Shown: positions 48,251-57,419 of the stretch, piece after piece | How the letters are laid out: each line of letters begins with the position of its first letter | Position numbering within the stretch: the first letter of the stretch is position 1 | Assembly (NCBI GenBank): GCA_903900155.1 | Contig: CAIUMD010000055.1 | Location: 1-64,000, forward strand | DNA: 64,000 bases | Reading direction: 5' to 3' | DNA from: an uncultured Caulobacterales bacterium | GTDB taxonomy: Bacteria; Pseudomonadota; Alphaproteobacteria; Caulobacterales; Caulobacteraceae | The notes under the pieces: generated by a model | Database searches by the model: none | What the model saw: only the letters and a program-made list of their open reading frames with translations | Told to the model about the DNA's origin: nothing | Program-made: the position numbers and the translations under genes

Positions 48251-48276
48251 GGAACCGCAGCGCTAAGCTCGGCGTT
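48251..48276 (+). promoter_or_regulatory. EcfG/SigT-type promoter
   Basis: GGAAC-N17-CGTT upstream of 48333. Confidence 0.75.
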
Positions 48277-48332
48277 GACGGGGCGCAGCTTCAGCGCCTC
48301 CAGTTTAGGTCGGTCGCGTCGCGAACCAGGAG

Positions 48333-48686
48333 ATGATCATGCCCGCCAGTTCCACTGCCGCCGCCAAGGAAGCCGAGAAGGCCAAGAGCGCCACCCTGGA
48401 AGCCGTCGAGCACGCCGAGCGCAGCTTCGCTCAGGCCGCCGACGCCGCTCGGGTCCAGCTGACCGAAGCCGCCAAGCGCGTCGAGAAGTCGGTGACCGAG
48501 GGCTTCGAGACCCTGCGCGCCCAGAGCCGCGCCTATACCGACACCGCCGGCCAGCAGCTGGAGGACGCCCAGCGCTACGCCAGCGAGCGCATCCGCGAAC
48601 GTCCGATCACCGCCACCCTGGCCGGTCTCGGCGTCGGCGTGCTGATCGGCCTCCTGCTCTCCGGCGGCCGCAGCAACAACCGGTGA
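48333..48686 (+). CDS. Small amphipathic protein with C-terminal TM/glycine-rich segment (DUF883/ElaB-like)
   Basis: AggAG ribosome binding site; coiled N-terminus and RERPITATLAGLGVGVLIGLLLSGGR C-terminus. Confidence 0.8.
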   Translation: MIMPASSTAAAKEAEKAKSATLEAVEHAERSFAQAADAARVQLTEAAKRVEKSVTEGFETLRAQSRAYTDTAGQQLEDAQRYASERIRERPITATLAGLGVGVLIGLLLSGGRSNNR

Positions 48687-49084
48687 TCTTCGAAAAGACC
48701 CTGATGACGCTGGCGGCGGCGGCGGCGATCGCCGCCGCCGCGGCGGTCGGCGTCGTGTCCGCCGCCTTCGCGGTCTATGCCGTGCTGGTCCCGCTGGTCT
48801 CGCCAGCGGGCGCCGCGGCGATTGTCGCGGCCGTCGCCGCGCTGATCGTCGCCGTCGCCGGCATGATCGCCGCCCGCAAGGTCGAGGGCAGCCGGAACGC
48901 GCATCACAACGCGCCGCCGCAGGCTGGTTTCGACATGACGGCGAAAGTCGTCGAGATCGTCCGTGACCGCCCGATCGTCTCGATCGGCATCGGCCTGGCC
49001 GCCGGGATCTTCGCCCTGAAGAACCCGACCCTGACCGCCGCGGTCGCCAAGGCGTTCCTGGACCCGAAGCCGCCGCAACGCTGA
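48683..49084 (+). CDS. Phage-holin-family/DUF1469-like membrane protein (GTG start)
   Basis: 4-nt overlap with upstream ORF; two hydrophobic segments; VRDRPIVSIGIGLAAGIFALKNP. Confidence 0.7.
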   Translation: MIFEKTLMTLAAAAAIAAAAAVGVVSAAFAVYAVLVPLVSPAGAAAIVAAVAALIVAVAGMIAARKVEGSRNAHHNAPPQAGFDMTAKVVEIVRDRPIVSIGIGLAAGIFALKNPTLTAAVAKAFLDPKPPQR

Positions 49085-49108
49085 TGGGGCGTTATTGGAA
49101 CGACCGAC

Positions 49109-49135
49109 CGCCGCCGGGCTCGCTCGGCGGCGTTT
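49109..49135 (+). terminator. Terminator-like hairpin
   Basis: CGCCGCCGGG CTCGC TCGGCGGCG TTT. Confidence 0.6.
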
Positions 49136-49312
49136 CTGCGCCTTAGATTTCTCTTCAGATTTTGGGGAAGCCCCAATTTTCAAAGGGAATTTCTCAACTA
49201 AAGTTGAGCGCTCCGGACCGCTTTAAAAGCTTACGCTTTGGCTCCGCGCGTTCTAGATGCCTTCCGCGCGTTCCCTTCCTCTCCATGGGAACGCCTTCCC
49301 CATGGAGTGATC

Positions 49313-49933
49313 ATGACGTACTCGCTGCCGGACCTGCCCTACGCCTATGACGCGCTGGAGCCGACCATCTCGGCCAACACGCTGCGCTTCCACCACGACA
49401 AGCACCACGCCGCCTATGTCACGGCCCTGAACGGCCTGCTGAACGGCGACGACCAGGGCTCGCTGGAAAACGTCATCAAGGGCGCCGGCCCGGGCAAGGT
49501 GTTCAACAACGCCGCCCAGGCCTGGAACCACGCCTTCTTCTGGGACGGCCTGTCGCCGACCAAGACCGCCCCGGGCGCCGACCTGGCCGCCGCCATCGAG
49601 AGCACCTTCGGCGGCCTGGACGCCCTGAAGGAAAAGTTCGTCGCCGAGGGCGTCGGCCATTTCGGCTCGGGCTGGGTGTGGCTGGTCTCGGACGCCTCGG
49701 GCGCCCTGAAGATCATCTCGACCCACGACGCCGAGAGCCCGGTCACGCAAGACCTGACCGCCCTGGTCGTCGCCGACGTCTGGGAGCACGCCTACTATCT
49801 GGACTACCAGAACCTGCGGAAGGGCTTCCTGGAAGCGGTTTTCGACAACCTGATCAACTGGACCCTCGCCGACAGCCAGTATGCGGCCGCCAAGTCGGGC
49901 GCCCAAGGCTGGGCCTATCCGGCCCCGACCTAA
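49313..49933 (+). CDS. sodB: Superoxide dismutase (Fe type)
   Basis: YSLPDLPYAYDALEPTISANTLRFHHDKHHAAYVTALNGLL; VWEHAYYLDYQNLR. Confidence 0.97.
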   Translation: MTYSLPDLPYAYDALEPTISANTLRFHHDKHHAAYVTALNGLLNGDDQGSLENVIKGAGPGKVFNNAAQAWNHAFFWDGLSPTKTAPGADLAAAIESTFGGLDALKEKFVAEGVGHFGSGWVWLVSDASGALKIISTHDAESPVTQDLTALVVADVWEHAYYLDYQNLRKGFLEAVFDNLINWTLADSQYAAAKSGAQGWAYPAPT

Positions 49934-49953
49934 GGTTTCGGCCTAAGGTTCAC

Positions 49954-49978
49954 GGAACGCCCGGGAGTCGTGGGCGTT
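49954..49978 (+). promoter_or_regulatory. EcfG/SigT-type promoter
   Basis: GGAAC-N16-CGTT upstream of 50022. Confidence 0.75.
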
Positions 49979-50021
49979 GTTTCCAAGCGAGACAACAGCC
50001 CCGACTTTTCCGGAGGAACCC

Positions 50022-50198
50022 ATGCTGAACTGGGCCGTGACCTTCCTGGTGATCGCTCTGATCGCCGCTCTGCTGGGCTTCACCAGCATCGCGGGCGCCG
50101 CGATCGGGATCGCCAAGATTCTGTTCTTCGTCTTCCTGATCCTGTTCGTGGTGTCACTGGTTGCTGGCGGCCTCCGCGGACGCGGCGCGCCGCGCTAG
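50022..50198 (+). CDS. DUF1328 small membrane protein
   Basis: [47 protein letters not shown]. Confidence 0.92.
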
Positions 50199-50221
50199 GC
50201 AGGACCGATATCGAACCGACG

Positions 50222-50254
50222 AACGGCGCGGCCTTCTAGGCCGCGCCGTTTTCG
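50222..50254. terminator. Likely bidirectional terminator between convergent genes
   Basis: AACGGCGCGGCC TTCTA GGCCGCGCCGTT TTCG. Confidence 0.8.
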
Positions 50255-51039
50255 TTTCGGCGGTCGAAGGCCCAGGTGCGCCAAACATCGAACTTGCCGC
50301 GCTCATAGGCCATGGCCGCCACGCGCACGCAGTGGGGCTCGACCTCGATGACGTTGAAGCCGGGCGCGGCGCCGCGCTCGCGGTGGGACAGGGTGCCCGA
50401 ACCGACCGCATGGGTCCGACCGTCGCCGAACGGGATGGCGGTGACGAACGGCAGGTGGATATGGCCCGACAGGATGACGTCGGCGCCGGCGGCCACGAAG
50501 CGATTGGCCGCGTCGACCCCGCCATGCACCTTGGCGGTCATCGGCCCGCCCAGGATCTCCATCAGCGGGTGATGGCAGACCACCACCCGCAGGTCGCCGG
50601 CCGGCGCAGCTTCCAGCTCGCGGACGACGCGGCGGATCTGGCCGTGCGACACCGCGCCCTTCGACCAGTTCCAGCGTGCTTGAGCCACGCGGGCGCTATT
50701 GAGCGAGGCCACCGTGATGCCCGGCGCGCGCCAGGAGGCTCCGTCCTCGTCGCCGAATCGGTCTTTGAAACGGCCCCAGCCGCGGGTGAACCGCGCGAAG
50801 AGCTCGGCGGGCCCGACGAAGGGCGTGTCGTGATTGCCCGGCGCGACGATCTTGGGATCGGGCAGGCGTTTCAGCCAGGCCGCGGCCGCGTCGAACTCGG
50901 GGACCTTGCCGTCCAGGGTCAGGTCGCCGGCGGCGATGACGAGATCCGGCGCGGCCGCGACGATCCAGGCTGCGGCCGCCTCGACGGCTTCCTGGTTCTC
51001 GCCGCCGAAATGGATGTCGGAGACCTGGACCAGTTTCAT
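50236..51039 (-). CDS. Metallophosphoesterase
   Basis: MKLVQVSDIHFGG; DLVIAAGDLTLDG; VAPGNHDTPF; VCHHPL; LSGHIHLP. Confidence 0.94.
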   Translation of the reverse strand: MKLVQVSDIHFGGENQEAVEAAAAWIVAAAPDLVIAAGDLTLDGKVPEFDAAAAWLKRLPDPKIVAPGNHDTPFVGPAELFARFTRGWGRFKDRFGDEDGASWRAPGITVASLNSARVAQARWNWSKGAVSHGQIRRVVRELEAAPAGDLRVVVCHHPLMEILGGPMTAKVHGGVDAANRFVAAGADVILSGHIHLPFVTAIPFGDGRTHAVGSGTLSHRERGAAPGFNVIEVEPHCVRVAAMAYERGKFDVWRTWAFDRRNENGAA

Positions 51040-51044
51040 GGACT

Positions 51045-51902
51045 TCAGGCTTCGTCTCGCGGGACCAGGGCGCGGAAGGCCTTGGGGCGGAAGCGGATCG
51101 AGACCTCGGGATCCAGCCTGGCCGGCTCGCCGTCGAAGATCGCCGGGATCCGCCCGCGCGCCCAGACCTTGCCCACCCGGCAACGGCCGACCGACACCGA
51201 GGGGTCCTCGCGCCACTGTCCCCGCGCGGCGTTGAAGCCCAGGCGGAAGATATCGAGCGCGCCCGAAGGATCCATGGCGGCGGCCTCCAAGGCGCGTTCG
51301 TCGGCGTCCAGGGCGCTGGAGACCAGCGGGCACATCAGGGTCAGGGCCTCGGCCTTGTCCTTGGGGCGGCCGTCCAGGGTGAAGCGCAGCCGGCCGGAGA
51401 AGGCGTTGCGCAATGCGCGGCGGGCGCGGGCCACGGCGATGGCGGCGCGGCCCTCGCGGGCGGCCTCGCGGGCCGTGGCCCACAGGGCGGGGCTGCCCAG
51501 GATGGCGGCGACGAAGAACAGGCGACCGCCCACTTCACCGCCCGAGATCATCCTGGCCTCGCCGCCGTCCAGGCAGGCCTTCATCGCGGCCTGCCAGTCG
51601 CGTTCGCCATAGATGGCGCGGGGCAGCATGTTCATGGTGCCGCCGGGCAGGGGCGCGATCAGCGGACCATCGGGACCGGCCAGCTCGGCCGCGCCGCGCG
51701 CGGTGCCGTCGCCGGCCAGCACCAGCACCGCGTCCGGCGCGCCGTCGATCACAGAACGCAGGCATTCGCCGATCTCGCCCGGCGCCGGCGCGTGGACCAC
51801 GCCCTTGACCCCGTACTCGGCGAGCAGCCGTTCGGCGATTTGCGGCGCATCGGGGCCGACGGATCCCGAAGCTGTATTGGCGATGACGTCGATGCGCTTC
51901 AC
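51045..51902 (-). CDS. Diacylglycerol kinase (lipid kinase) family protein (GTG start)
   Basis: RIDVIANTASGSV; VLVLAGDGTARGAAELAGPDGPLIAPLPGGTMNMLPRAIYG. Confidence 0.92.
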   Translation of the reverse strand: MKRIDVIANTASGSVGPDAPQIAERLLAEYGVKGVVHAPAPGEIGECLRSVIDGAPDAVLVLAGDGTARGAAELAGPDGPLIAPLPGGTMNMLPRAIYGERDWQAAMKACLDGGEARMISGGEVGGRLFFVAAILGSPALWATAREAAREGRAAIAVARARRALRNAFSGRLRFTLDGRPKDKAEALTLMCPLVSSALDADERALEAAAMDPSGALDIFRLGFNAARGQWREDPSVSVGRCRVGKVWARGRIPAIFDGEPARLDPEVSIRFRPKAFRALVPRDEA

Positions 51903-51934
51903 GCAGCGTCCCCCTTCGTGAAATTCGGGGAGGC

Positions 51935-51960
51935 AACGGCTCAAGCTGAACCATGGTTCC
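51935..51960 (-). promoter_or_regulatory. EcfG/SigT-type promoter for lipid kinase-metallophosphoesterase operon
   Basis: Minus strand GGAAC-N17-CGTT (plus AACG 51935, GTTCC 51956). Confidence 0.7.
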
Positions 51961-51971
51961 GTTCACGAAAC

Positions 51972-51996
51972 GGAACCGTCGCCGCCGGGAGTCGTT
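51972..51996 (+). promoter_or_regulatory. EcfG/SigT-type promoter
   Basis: GGAAC-N16-CGTTT upstream of 52038. Confidence 0.75.
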
Positions 51997-52037
51997 TGCT
52001 CGACACGGGGACAGGAAGTTCGGATCGGAGAGCCAAC

Positions 52038-52382
52038 ATGAAGATGACCATGATCGCCCTGATGGGCGTGGGCGTGCTGGCCTCGGCCTGCACCTCGACC
52101 GGCAATGTCGAACGCAACGCCGCCGGCGGCGCCGCCCTGGGCGCGCTGGCGGGCGCGGTGATCGGCAACAATGTCGGCAGCGGCAGCGCCGGCAGCGGCG
52201 CCCTGGTCGGCGCGGCCATCGGCGGCACCGTCGGCGCGGTGAAGGGCTGCAGGGAAGATGGCGGTTGCGGCTCGACCTCGGCCAACCGTCGCCAGTACTA
52301 TGACGAGCGCGCGGGCCGTTACTACTTTTACGACTCCCGCAGCGGTCGCTATTATTGGGAAGACGGCGCGCCCCGCTACTAA
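52038..52382 (+). CDS. Glycine-zipper lipoprotein (17 kDa antigen-like)
   Basis: Lipobox VLASAC; GGAALGALAGAVIGNNVGSGSAGSGALVGAAIGGTVGAVKG. Confidence 0.87.
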   Translation: MKMTMIALMGVGVLASACTSTGNVERNAAGGAALGALAGAVIGNNVGSGSAGSGALVGAAIGGTVGAVKGCREDGGCGSTSANRRQYYDERAGRYYFYDSRSGRYYWEDGAPRY

Positions 52383-52410
52383 CCAGCGGTTCGCGACGAC
52401 GTCCCAAATG

Positions 52411-52440
52411 AAGGCGATCGGCTAAGCCGGTCGCCTTTCT
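52411..52440 (+). terminator. Rho-independent terminator after glycine-zipper gene
   Basis: AAGGCGATCGGC TAA GCCGGTCGCCTT TCTT. Confidence 0.7.
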
Positions 52441-52466
52441 TGTGTTCGCAAGCTTCGGAGGGTGGA

Positions 52467-52931
52467 ATGAAAAAGACGACGATCATCGCCTTGGGCGGCG
52501 CCATGCTGGCCTTGGGGGCCTGCGCGCAGACCCAAGGTCCCTGGCGCACGCTGCGCAAGCCCGTGGCCGCCGCCGCGCCTGTCTGCGACAATTTCCAGTC
52601 CTCGGTCTATTTCGAGCAGGACAGCGCGGCCCTGACCAAGGAAGCGCGCATGGTTCTGGCCGGCGCCCAGACCCAGGCGCGCGGCTGCGCGGTGAAATCG
52701 GTGCGGGTGCTGGGCCTGGCCGACGCGGTCGGCGCCCCGCAGGCCAACCTGGCCCTCTCCAAGCGCCGCGCCGAGACGGTGACGGGCGCCCTGGCCAAGG
52801 TCGGCTTTGCCAAGGTCGATATCGACGCGGTCGCCGCGGGCGACGCCGGCGCGCTGGCCGCCTCGGGCGCGGCCAATCCGCTGCGCCGCCGGGCGGACAT
52901 CCTGTTCGAGTTGGCGCCGCCGGCGAACTGA
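52467..52931 (+). CDS. OmpA family lipoprotein
   Basis: Lipobox MLALGAC; SSVYFEQDSAALTKEARMVL ... LALSKRRAETVTGAL ... NPLRRRADILFEL. Confidence 0.85.
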   Translation: MKKTTIIALGGAMLALGACAQTQGPWRTLRKPVAAAAPVCDNFQSSVYFEQDSAALTKEARMVLAGAQTQARGCAVKSVRVLGLADAVGAPQANLALSKRRAETVTGALAKVGFAKVDIDAVAAGDAGALAASGAANPLRRRADILFELAPPAN

Positions 52932-52947
52932 CGGCGAACTGATCCTG

Positions 52948-52979
52948 TCGCCCTCCCAAGCGTGCGCTTGGGAGGGCGA
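52948..52979. terminator. Perfect palindromic hairpin downstream of OmpA-family gene
   Basis: TCGCCCTCCCAAGC GTGC GCTTGGGAGGGCGA; no T-run. Confidence 0.5.
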
Positions 52980-52987
52980 AGAGCAAC

Positions 52988-53103
52988 GAAGAAAGCGGAC
53001 CGGGAACCGGACCGCTGGAGTTCGCATCAACCAAGGGGGGTGCGAAGGCGGCAGACTGGCTATCGCCAGTCTCAAGTCGGGGGGGCGTCGCCGCCTTCGC
53101 AAT
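52988..53103 (-). ncRNA. gsrN: GsrN-like SigT-dependent small RNA (ends approximate)
   Basis: SigT-type promoter immediately upstream on minus strand; 12-bp stem (53041-53052/53090-53101) enclosing inner 8-bp stem and exposed C7 tract; 3' hairpin AGCGGTCCGG-TTC-CCGGTCCGCT followed by TTCTTCGTT. Confidence 0.78.
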
Positions 53104-53108
53104 GTAGA

Positions 53109-53133
53109 AACGAGAGATCGCGCGAAGGGTTCC
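53109..53133 (-). promoter_or_regulatory. EcfG/SigT-type promoter for GsrN-like sRNA
   Basis: Minus strand GGAAC-N16-CGTTT (plus AACG 53109, GTTCC 53129). Confidence 0.75.
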
Positions 53134-53200
53134 CGCTTTGCGCGCTTTTTTTGCCTGTTTCTTTTTGACGATTTTCGTGTGTTTCGAGGCTCTGGAATCC

Positions 53201-53225
53201 GGAACGACGGCGACGGCAAGACGTT
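53201..53225 (+). promoter_or_regulatory. EcfG/SigT-type promoter, divergent from sRNA promoter
   Basis: GGAAC-N16-CGTT upstream of 53273. Confidence 0.75.
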
Positions 53226-53272
53226 GAAATGTCAGGCGGACACGTTGTTCGCCGGGGCAGGGGAGCAACGTC

Positions 53273-53461
53273 GTGATCCGGACATATATGGCCGAACATG
53301 GCGGTACGGTTTTCGTTTCGACGCCGAGCCAGCGTCAAAAAAGGATGCGTTCGCGGATCATGGCCCTGGTCGTGATCGCCGCGGTCGGCGCCTCGGCCGG
53401 GATGGTCCAGGCGTTCAATGACCGCGACCGTGCGGCCGCCGCCAACATGTGGACGCCATAG
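53273..53461 (+). CDS. Small hypothetical protein with hydrophobic segment
   Basis: 62-aa ORF between a SigT-type promoter and a second small ORF. Confidence 0.55.
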   Translation: MIRTYMAEHGGTVFVSTPSQRQKRMRSRIMALVVIAAVGASAGMVQAFNDRDRAAAANMWTP

Positions 53462-53474
53462 GAGGTATGACATC

Positions 53475-53735
53475 ATGCCCGCCGATATTCATCATTCCAG
53501 CGCGCCTGAACGTGCGCCGCGCCTGAACGCCACCCGCGCCCGCCAGGGGCGCTGGGGCAAGCACGTGTTCTGGGTGCTGATCGTCTCGACGATCCTGGCC
53601 GCCATCGCCCTGTTCGGCGCCTGGACATACCGCGCCGGCGATCTGGCCGCGGTCGAGGTCAACAACGGAGCGAAGACGCCGGCCGAGGCTCAGCGGTACG
53701 ACACGCCGCAAGCGCCGGTGAAGCAGGCGCCTTAG
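53475..53735 (+). CDS. Small hypothetical single-TM protein
   Basis: GGAGG RBS upstream; TM segment HVFWVLIVSTILAAIALFGAWTY. Confidence 0.75.
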   Translation: MPADIHHSSAPERAPRLNATRARQGRWGKHVFWVLIVSTILAAIALFGAWTYRAGDLAAVEVNNGAKTPAEAQRYDTPQAPVKQAP

Positions 53736-53758
53736 GGCTTTAGCATCGTCTGAAAGGG

Positions 53759-53789
53759 GCGGCTTCCGAGAGGGAGCCGCTTTTTTCAT
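53759..53789 (+). terminator. Rho-independent terminator
   Basis: GCGGCTTCCGAGAGGGAGCCGC TTTTTT. Confidence 0.85.
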
Positions 53790-53817
53790 GCGCTAAAGCA
53801 CATCCGCCCAACGAAAA

Positions 53818-53842
53818 ACGGCCTCCCTTTCGGAAGGCCGTC
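53818..53842 (-). terminator. Terminator downstream of phyR
   Basis: Minus strand ACGGCCTTCCGAAAGGGAGGCCGT TTTTC. Confidence 0.8.
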
Positions 53843-53867
53843 TCGGGGATCATTCGGGAGAAACCGC

Positions 53868-54671
53868 CTACGCGGCCTTGGTCTGGCTGCGGCGCGGGTG
53901 GAAGAACAGGGCCTGGCCGATCGCCGCCTTCACCGTTTCCGGCTGGAAGGGCTTGGTGATCAGGAAGGTCGGTTCCGGGCGCTCGCCGGTCAGCAGGCGC
54001 TCGGGGAAGGCGGTGATGAAGATCACCGGCACGTCCATGCGGCCCAGGATATCCTTGACCGCGTCGATGCCCGACGAGCCGTCGGCCAGCTGGATGTCGG
54101 CCAGAACCAGGCCCGGCGTGGCGCGGGCGACGGCGTCGACCGCTTCCCCGCGGGTGGCCGCGATGTCGATGACGTCGTGGCCCAGTTCCTTGACCAGGGC
54201 CTCGATATCGGCGGCGATGACCGGTTCGTCCTCGATGATCAGGACCTGGGTGGCCAGTTCGGCGTCGATCTCGGCCTGGGCGTCGGCGATCAGCCGTTCC
54301 ACCTCGCCGAAGTCGCAGTCCAGGATCTGGGCCGCCTCGGTGGGCGTGAAGCCCTCGAGCGCGGTGAGCAGGAAGGCCTGGCGCGACCGCGGGGCGATTC
54401 GCATCAGGCGTTGGGCGGCGTCATCCCCACCCGTCACGCCGTCTTCACGGCGGGCTTCCAGCTGGGCGCCGGAGCTGAGCCAGATGGCGTGGAACACGCG
54501 ATACAGCGCCACGCGCGGCGAAAGGTCGGCGTCCAGCGAGCGCTCGCCGGCGGCCAGGGCCTCGAGCGCCACGCGGACATAATGATCGCCCGTCGTCTGG
54601 TCGCCGGTCAGGGCGCGGGCGTAGCGGCGGATATACGGCAGATGCGGCGCCAGCCGAGCAAGAAGACTCAT
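53868..54671 (-). CDS. phyR: General stress response anti-anti-sigma response regulator PhyR
   Basis: Sigma-like N-terminal domain (MSLLARLAPHLPYIRRYARALTGDQTTGDHYV) plus C-terminal receiver (VLIIEDEPVIAADIEALVKELGHDV). Confidence 0.97.
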   Translation of the reverse strand: MSLLARLAPHLPYIRRYARALTGDQTTGDHYVRVALEALAAGERSLDADLSPRVALYRVFHAIWLSSGAQLEARREDGVTGGDDAAQRLMRIAPRSRQAFLLTALEGFTPTEAAQILDCDFGEVERLIADAQAEIDAELATQVLIIEDEPVIAADIEALVKELGHDVIDIAATRGEAVDAVARATPGLVLADIQLADGSSGIDAVKDILGRMDVPVIFITAFPERLLTGERPEPTFLITKPFQPETVKAAIGQALFFHPRRSQTKAA

Positions 54672-54706
54672 GACCCCTCCCGATGCGGTGTCTTCGAAAA
54701 TCACTA

Positions 54707-54732
54707 AACGAACGGCAAAGCTACGCCGTTCC
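54707..54732 (-). promoter_or_regulatory. EcfG/SigT-type promoter for phyR
   Basis: Minus strand GGAAC-N17-CGTT. Confidence 0.75.
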
Positions 54733-54809
54733 GTCGAAGTCCGATAACGCCCCCTCAACTGAGCGGTTCCGCGAACAACAGAATTTTGACATCCTATGCC
54801 CAAGCTTAT

Positions 54810-54834
54810 GGAACTCGCTACGGAAAGCCACGTT
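54810..54834 (+). promoter_or_regulatory. EcfG/SigT-type promoter for nepR-sigT-phyK
   Basis: GGAAC-N16-CGTT. Confidence 0.85.
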
Positions 54835-54877
54835 GTCGTCTGGCGGAAAGACATTCGGCCAAAGGGGGCGGACGCCG

Positions 54878-55090
54878 ATGCAAATGCAGTTCGGTGTCGA
54901 GGACATGATCGAACACGTACCCATGGAAGATAAACGCAAGAGCGCCGCGGCGCTGGATGAAGCCCGTCTGCGCCAGCAGGCGATCGGCGTGAAGCTGCGC
55001 CAGATGTTCGACGAGGTCGTCAACGAGCCGGTGCCGGATGAATTCCTCGACATCCTCCGCAAGGCCGAGCCGCCGGCGGGAGGTCGCTGA
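54878..55090 (+). CDS. nepR: Anti-sigma factor NepR
   Basis: AIGVKLRQMFDEVVNEPVPDEFLDILRK NepR core; adjacent to phyR and sigT. Confidence 0.95.
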   Translation: MQMQFGVEDMIEHVPMEDKRKSAAALDEARLRQQAIGVKLRQMFDEVVNEPVPDEFLDILRKAEPPAGGR

Positions 55091-55092
55091 GC

Positions 55093-55698
55093 ATGAGCGA
55101 ACCGCAAGTCGGCCGCTCGCCGCCCGACCCCGCCCGCGACAACCAGTTCAAACGTGAGCTGGTCACGCTGATCCCGCATCTGCGCGCCTTCGCCCGCACC
55201 CTGACTGGTGATCCCACCGCCGCCGACGACCTGGCGCAGGACGCCATGATGAAGGCGTGGGACGCCCGTGCGTCGTTCCAGCTGGGCACCAACATGAAGG
55301 CCTGGACCTTCATGATCCTGCGCAATCAGTTCTATTCCGAGAAGCGCCGCAGCTGGCGCCAGAGCCAGCTGGACCAGGAAGCCGCCGAGCGGACCCTGGT
55401 GGCGGTCGACGATCCCGAGGCGCCCGTGGCTCTGGACGAGCTGCGCCTGGGCCTTGGCATGCTGCCGGCCGAACAGCGCGAAGCCCTGATCCTGGTCGGG
55501 GCCGGCGGCTTCGCCTACGAGGAGGCGGCCGAGATCTGCGGCTGCGCCGTCGGCACGGTGAAGAGCCGGGTCAGCCGCGCCCGCCGGGCGCTGCAGGCCA
55601 TTCTCGAGGCGGGCGCCTATGATCGGGACGGCGGGTCGGCGAGCGACGCCATGCACGCCATCCTGGCCGACGCGGAGCGGTTGAGCTCCCTGCGGTGA
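55093..55698 (+). CDS. sigT: ECF sigma factor SigT (EcfG family)
   Basis: FKRELVTLIPHLRAFARTLTGDPTAADDLAQDAMMKAW; GGFAYEEAAEICGCAVGTVKSRVSRARRAL. Confidence 0.96.
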   Translation: MSEPQVGRSPPDPARDNQFKRELVTLIPHLRAFARTLTGDPTAADDLAQDAMMKAWDARASFQLGTNMKAWTFMILRNQFYSEKRRSWRQSQLDQEAAERTLVAVDDPEAPVALDELRLGLGMLPAEQREALILVGAGGFAYEEAAEICGCAVGTVKSRVSRARRALQAILEAGAYDRDGGSASDAMHAILADAERLSSLR

Positions 55699-57389
55699 AT
55701 GCCCTCGCCGGCCGCGCCGCGCAGGCCGTAACCTCCATCCGCGTTCGCCTGGCCGTGGCCGTGGTCGTGGCCTTGCTGCCCGTGCTGCTGCTCGGTATCG
55801 CGCAGTCGATCTTCGCCTTCCGGGCGGAGGCCGATGCGCGCCGCCAGAGCCTGGAGCTGGCCGCCGGTCACAGCGCCACCCTCGCCCGCTACAATATCGA
55901 AGCCGCCGGGGTGTTGCTGCAGACCCTGGGCCCCGGCTCGGTGGGCCTGGAGTGCGCCCAGCGGCTGGCCGATGTTCGCGCGCGGCTTAACGGCTATGCC
56001 AATCTGATCCGCTTCGACAGCCGGGGGCGGGTGGCCTGCGCGGCCGCCACCACGCCCTATGACGTCCAGCGCGGCGCACGGCCGTGGTTCCAGTCGCTGC
56101 GCAACGGGGCCAAGATGGTGGTCGCCGCCGATCCCGGCGCGGTCTATGCCAATGAGCCGGCGGTGTTGGCCGCCGTGCGCGCCGGCGCGCCCGAGCGCTT
56201 CGACGGCGCCATGGCGGCCGTGCTCACCCTCGGCGACCTGAAGCTGGAGACCGCCAGCCGCTTCATGCCCGGCGGCGCCGAGGTGGCCCTGGCCGACAGC
56301 AACGGCCGAATCTTCGCCGCCACCGACCCCAAGGCCTTCGAAGCGGTCTCCGCGCGTTGGCGCCAGGAGGCGGCCAGGGATGGCTCGGCCTTGTGGACGG
56401 GTCGCGACCTGGAAAAGCGCGAACGCAACTACTCGGCCGCGCCGTTGGTCGAGGACAATGTTTTCGTGGTGCTGTCCGCGCCGACGCCCGGCCTGGTGTC
56501 CTGGGCCTGGATCAATCCGATTTCGCGGATGATGTTGCCGCTGCTGGCCTTCTTCATGGCCCTGGCTGCGGTGCTTTGGGTCGCCGAGCGCGGCGTGGTG
56601 CGTTGGATCGTCTATCTGCAACGCGTCGCCGCCATCTACGCCCGCGGCCGTTTCTCCGTGCGGCCTTTGCAAGCCGAGCGCGCGCCGCCCGAGATCCGCG
56701 AACTGGCCAACACCCTGGACGCCATGGCGGGCGCGATCGTCACCCGCGACGCCTCGCTGATGGACAGCCTGGCCGAGAAGGACGCGCTGATGCGCGAGAT
56801 CCATCACCGGGTGAAGAACAACCTGCAGATCATCACCTCGCTGCTCAACATGCAGCAGCGGGCGCTGGCGGATCCGGCGGCCAAGGCGGCGATGAACGAC
56901 ACGCGCCAGCGGATCACGGCCCTGGCCCAGATCTATCGCGCCCTCTACCAGGGGCCGGACCTCAAGCGGGTGGACCTGCGGCCGTTCCTGGAGGAGCTGA
57001 CCGCCCAGCTCCTGGCCAACGACATGACCACCTCGCCGCTGGTGCGGACCGAGGTGCACGCCGACCCGCTGGTCATCGATCCCGACCGCCTGGCGCCGAT
57101 CGCCTTGTTCGCGGTCGAGGCCATCACCAACGCCCAGAAGCACGCCTTCGGTCCCAATGGCGGCAAGCTGGAGGTCGGCTTCCACGTGCGCGGCGAAGAG
57201 GCCGAGCTGTCGATCAGCGACGATGGTCCCGGCGCGGCCGAAAGCCTGGGCGGCGGGGTCGGCCGCACCCTGATGACCGCCTTCGCCCGCCAGCTGCGCG
57301 GCAAGGTCACGTTCGAGAGCCACGAGCCGCGCGGCCTGACGGTGCGGCTGATTTTCCCGACGCCGCAAGCCTTGAACGCGGCCGCTTGA
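55695..57389 (+). CDS. phyK: Sensor histidine kinase PhyK (HisKA_2 type; GTG start)
   Basis: N-terminal TM and extracytoplasmic region; MREIHHRVKNNLQIITSLLNMQQRAL; position next to sigT. Confidence 0.93.
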   Translation: MNALAGRAAQAVTSIRVRLAVAVVVALLPVLLLGIAQSIFAFRAEADARRQSLELAAGHSATLARYNIEAAGVLLQTLGPGSVGLECAQRLADVRARLNGYANLIRFDSRGRVACAAATTPYDVQRGARPWFQSLRNGAKMVVAADPGAVYANEPAVLAAVRAGAPERFDGAMAAVLTLGDLKLETASRFMPGGAEVALADSNGRIFAATDPKAFEAVSARWRQEAARDGSALWTGRDLEKRERNYSAAPLVEDNVFVVLSAPTPGLVSWAWINPISRMMLPLLAFFMALAAVLWVAERGVVRWIVYLQRVAAIYARGRFSVRPLQAERAPPEIRELANTLDAMAGAIVTRDASLMDSLAEKDALMREIHHRVKNNLQIITSLLNMQQRALADPAAKAAMNDTRQRITALAQIYRALYQGPDLKRVDLRPFLEELTAQLLANDMTTSPLVRTEVHADPLVIDPDRLAPIALFAVEAITNAQKHAFGPNGGKLEVGFHVRGEEAELSISDDGPGAAESLGGGVGRTLMTAFARQLRGKVTFESHEPRGLTVRLIFPTPQALNAAA

Positions 57390-57394
57390 TTTCC

Positions 57395-57419
57395 GGAACC
57401 CAGCTTCGCCGCTGGCGTT
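57395..57419 (+). promoter_or_regulatory. EcfG/SigT-type promoter
   Basis: GGAAC-N16-CGTT upstream of 57482. Confidence 0.75.

Follow-up and report, generated by a model that had tools for sequence, protein, structure and literature searches.

Between the OmpA-family gene and the small ORF that starts at 53273 of the window (the whole 64,000-nt stretch analysed, from an uncultured Caulobacterales bacterium), the minus strand almost certainly carries gsrN at 52995-53100, and this is the best explanation as a whole. The gene encodes a small RNA (sRNA) that belongs to the general stress response of Alphaproteobacteria. The element is considered a GsrN ortholog because of a covariance model match, a fold with covariation, the promoter, the conserved loop, the locus and a katG target site. 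It is an ordinary ortholog, since its kind, its mechanism and its place beside the stress locus in Caulobacter have all been published before; homologs adjoining that locus were described in Caulobacter, Brevundimonas and Phenylobacterium (eLife 2018, PMC5869019). The initial annotation had proposed an unannotated GsrN-like stress sRNA on this strand. Kind and strand are borne out, but the family is not new, being already present in Rfam (RF01529, CC3552) and, with homologs beside the stress locus, in the literature (PMC5869019).

A scan against all Rfam families matched positions 53098-52997 of the minus strand to RF01529 with 86.1 bits and an E-value of 2e-12, the cut-off (gathering score) being 50 bits. 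The match is full length (model positions 1-106) and is the single one in the whole 4.94-Mb genome. CC3552 was equated with GsrN by comparing sequence numbering, not by citing the paper that first described CC3552 (Landt et al. 2008). GsrN is an RNA of about 100 nt, has 106 positions in deletion notation, shows internal 5' ends mapped at C53/T54 and T64 and holds six C's in its 5' loop, of which seven nucleotides pair with the first seven of the katG mRNA (PMC5869019). The copy in L186, a 4-Mb C. crescentus-like genome of the same genus, has C53, T54, T64 and six C's when numbered from the G of GCGAAGG. Among the target stretches tabulated for GsrN (PMC5869019), 17 of 20 are complementary to the L186 loop over at least 7 nt and an 18th is complementary to the L186 terminator. 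Judged by these sequence comparisons, RF01529 is the family to which C. crescentus GsrN belongs; the window RNA is 87% identical to the L186 copy over 110 nt. The Rfam entry CC3552 is thereby tied to GsrN, a link of potential use to annotators.

The gene is preceded on the minus strand by an EcfG/SigT-type promoter, GGAAC-N16-CGTT(T), at 53133-53108 (GGAAC 53133-53129, 16-nt spacer, CGTT 53112-53109). The motif had been noted before with its end at 53109, whereas its fifth T is at 53108, one base further. The start of the transcript had been placed near 53103. Alignment to the GsrN numbering favours 53100 as the likely 5' end, since the same start in the near relative L186 puts C53, T54 and T64 where the GsrN ends were mapped, and the predicted RNA would from there be about 106-116 nt long, counted through the terminator tail. 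The structural parts listed in the initial annotation were all recovered on the minus strand, no more than one or two bases from the coordinates given there. The 12-bp outer stem P1 is formed by TGCGAAGGCGGC (5' arm, 53101-53090) and GCCGCCTTCGCA (3' arm, 53052-53041), the latter including the counterpart of the GsrN cleavage site mapped around C53/T54, where this RNA may be cleaved as well. The C-rich target-binding loop GACGCCCCCCCGACTTGA (53089-53072) exposes a C7 tract at 53085-53079, the C's of which are predicted to be mostly unpaired. The inner hairpin P2 (53072-53053) has an 8-bp stem, in which AGACTGGC (53072-53065) pairs with GCCAGTCT (53060-53053). Directly after the outer stem follows a linker (53040-53027) that is variable among homologs and starts with the second C tract, a C6 at 53040-53035. 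The intrinsic terminator (53016-52985) consists of the hairpin AGCGGTCCGG/CCGGTCCGCT at 53016-52994 and a U-rich tail to 52985; in this copy its stem has one U-U mismatch and the U tail is interrupted, which counts against the reading as gsrN.

A candidate katG target site, the search for which had been suggested in the initial annotation, was found in this genome. The predicted 5' end of its katG leader carries GUCGGGGG, which complements the loop over 8 nt and is located 49 nt upstream of the katG GTG start and at the same distance from an OxyR-like box as in relatives. A first scan of 150-nt katG leaders without an anchor was uninformative; anchoring on the OxyR-like box made the signal clear. 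GUCGGG or a longer site lies 29-32 nt downstream of the box in 10 of 19 OxyR-box-like leaders, with 0.4 expected from shuffles and a maximum of 3 in 2000, although these katG sequences are related and do not count as independent; two C. crescentus-like leaders have GUCGGGG at the equivalent place. By itself the katG duplex is no more than moderately unusual, 3% of shuffled leaders being as good. Taken together, these sequence patterns indicate that the GsrN-katG pairing is likely conserved here. A genome-wide search for loop complements (13 nt, one mismatch) gave six sites besides gsrN, below the reversed-pattern control, and yielded no targets.

It is unlikely, though conceivable, that this GsrN ortholog has lost its control of katG in the present species and works through other G-rich targets. 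In favour of this view, the loop hardly varies although a katG match is present in only 56 of 75 genomes of the genus, 9 of the 19 OxyR-box-like leaders have no 6-nt site at the expected place, and many RNAs co-purify with GsrN in C. crescentus (PMC5869019). However, katG is kept in this genome, with an 8-nt complementary site at a position equivalent to that of the proven C. crescentus site, which argues for GsrN still acting on katG. Several katG genes of the genus (L146, L154-L182) have neither an OxyR-like box nor a GsrN site, which suggests that katG falls into two regulatory types in the genus.

Folding of the 121-nt minus strand gave a minimum free energy of -57.7 kcal/mol, compared with -38.3 +/- 3.3 for 200 shuffles, none of which was as low (z = -5.85). 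Among 93 distinct homologs, 96.4% of cells are paired in the proposed structure and changes on both sides occur in 20 of its 29 pairs, a covariation reached by none of 500 shuffles and one that collapses with shifted partners or structures. The covariation expected of the stems if they are real is hence present: compensatory changes are found in six of the 12 pairs of P1, where 99.6% of cells are paired, in six of the eight pairs of P2 and in eight of the nine terminator pairs. RNAalifold predicted identical helices when no structure was supplied. The stems and the linker vary across the 93 homologs, and the loop is near-invariant. Since part of this set was picked by a pattern that includes both promoter and loop, these two features are best judged on 30 covariance-model homologs for which neither was required: the loop is present in all 30 and the strict promoter in 27, these 30 are the matches with the highest scores and come largely from one other genus, so that weaker members may show more variation.

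Strong hairpins between two genes could also mark a structured DNA or RNA element other than an sRNA gene, for instance a repeat, a long terminator, or a sequence that serves the OmpA-family gene as leader or attenuator. We consider this highly improbable: the OmpA-family gene lies on the opposite strand, so the element cannot be its leader, the element is single copy in the genome, it is preceded by a conserved promoter, and its most conserved part is the unpaired loop. That the minus strand encodes a small protein here, for which it could be said that mechanical ORFs cross the region, can practically be dismissed, as the homologs show single-base insertions in the C tract, variable linker length and compensatory stem changes, which fit an RNA and not a protein.

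The surroundings agree with a role of gsrN in the general stress response. Nearby lie phyR, encoding the anti-anti-sigma response regulator (53868-54671, minus strand; Pfam PhyR_sigma2 and PhyR_sigma-like), nepR, encoding the anti-sigma factor (54878-55090, plus strand, start codon set by eye; Pfam NepR on the longer frame 54683-55087), ecfG/sigT, encoding the general stress sigma factor (55093-55698, plus strand; Pfam sigma-70 regions 2 and 4, and position after nepR), and a sensor histidine kinase gene, PhyK-like by position (55695-57389, plus strand; Pfam HisKA_2). Here phyR-nepR-ecfG lies 0.8-2 kb from gsrN, its usual place, a proximity that is typical and not universal in the family. PhyR is placed and oriented alike relative to gsrN in 109 of 123 gsrN loci, most of the others being truncated where a contig or locus ends. 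In the C. crescentus-like genome L186, the small ORF, the glycine-zipper lipoprotein gene and the diacylglycerol-kinase-like gene remain around gsrN and the stress genes are absent, which suggests that the stress locus moved and gsrN stayed; such a move would explain why C. crescentus has been described as the exception.

Divergent from gsrN is a conserved 62-aa ORF (53273-53461, plus strand) with a probable single membrane helix, for which searches of Pfam and NCBIfam gave no match. A second EcfG-type promoter, GGAAC-N16-CGTT, lies upstream of it (53201-53225, plus strand) and was found in all 18 loci checked. The ORF is kept beside gsrN in 20 loci, is conserved in Caulobacter and still adjoins gsrN in C. 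crescentus-like genomes without phyR nearby. Tentatively, and with considerable doubt, gsrN and this ORF could be read as one conserved EcfG-controlled unit with back-to-back EcfG-type promoters. In that case the membrane protein encoded by the ORF may share a pathway with GsrN, since the pair stays together even where phyR-nepR-ecfG lies elsewhere. Ten GGAAC-N15-17-CGTT sites occur in the window, at 48251-57419, with about 1.2 expected from shuffles; several of them precede stress-type genes, namely an ElaB-like gene, an OsmB-like lipoprotein gene, nepR-ecfG, phyR and a small lipoprotein gene after the kinase. The segment 48251-57419 may thus represent a general-stress regulon island.

RF01529 matches were obtained in 279 of 390 Caulobacteraceae genomes, and all matches in the order-wide and class-wide samples fall in this family as well. 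The RNA appears, from these screens, to be restricted to Caulobacteraceae and to track PhyR: in a sample of 109 genomes, tallied by hand and uncorrected for kinship, gsrN is present in 58 of the 75 that have a strong PhyR versus 2 of the 34 others. There are 17 Caulobacteraceae genomes (e.g. G179, G187, G198) with a strong PhyR and without an RF01529 match, in which divergent GsrN copies may have escaped the stricter filters. An apparent second RF01529 copy in four genomes of another genus of the family scored about 36 bits, below the cut-off; the two that were read lack the C-loop motif and the EcfG promoter, and these copies were taken as chance or decayed matches.

By analogy with C. crescentus, stress would lead to phosphorylation of PhyR, which would draw NepR off EcfG/SigT, and SigT would then transcribe gsrN from its GGAAC-N16-CGTT promoter. 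In the resulting RNA of about 106 nt, the 12-bp stem and the inner hairpin would hold the C-rich loop open for pairing with G-rich stretches of target mRNAs, including GUCGGGGG at the predicted katG mRNA 5' end, which would raise KatG as in C. crescentus. The gene, its fold with covariation, the promoter motif, the locus and the complementary katG site were obtained here. Processing near nt 53 to a stable 5' isoform and stabilisation by Hfq are predicted from C. crescentus; the sequence around the cleavage site is conserved.

Compared with known systems, the element matches the full-length RF01529 model and differs from it in nothing of substance; the Rfam name makes no mention of GsrN. GsrN-like EcfG-dependent sRNAs have been proposed in Rhizobiaceae, where an EcfG promoter, a nearby stress locus, an exposed loop and a similar fold are reported (PMC5869019); likened by this published description, they differ in that RF01529 finds none outside Caulobacteraceae in the sampled genomes. 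This work confirms that one more Caulobacter-type species has a known stress sRNA and leaves the understanding of the system unchanged; beyond the 2018 paper, it backs the structure by formal covariation, charts the distribution across the family and shows a katG site whose position is conserved. With C. crescentus GsrN (CCNA_R0081) the RNA shares the EcfG-type promoter, the 106-nt length class, the 5' stem with C-rich loop and inner hairpin, the terminator hairpin and the complementarity to the katG leader (PMC5869019), whereas its loop has seven C's instead of six, its katG site comprises 8 nt instead of 7 nt, and its gene adjoins phyR-nepR-ecfG, which is distal to gsrN in C. crescentus.
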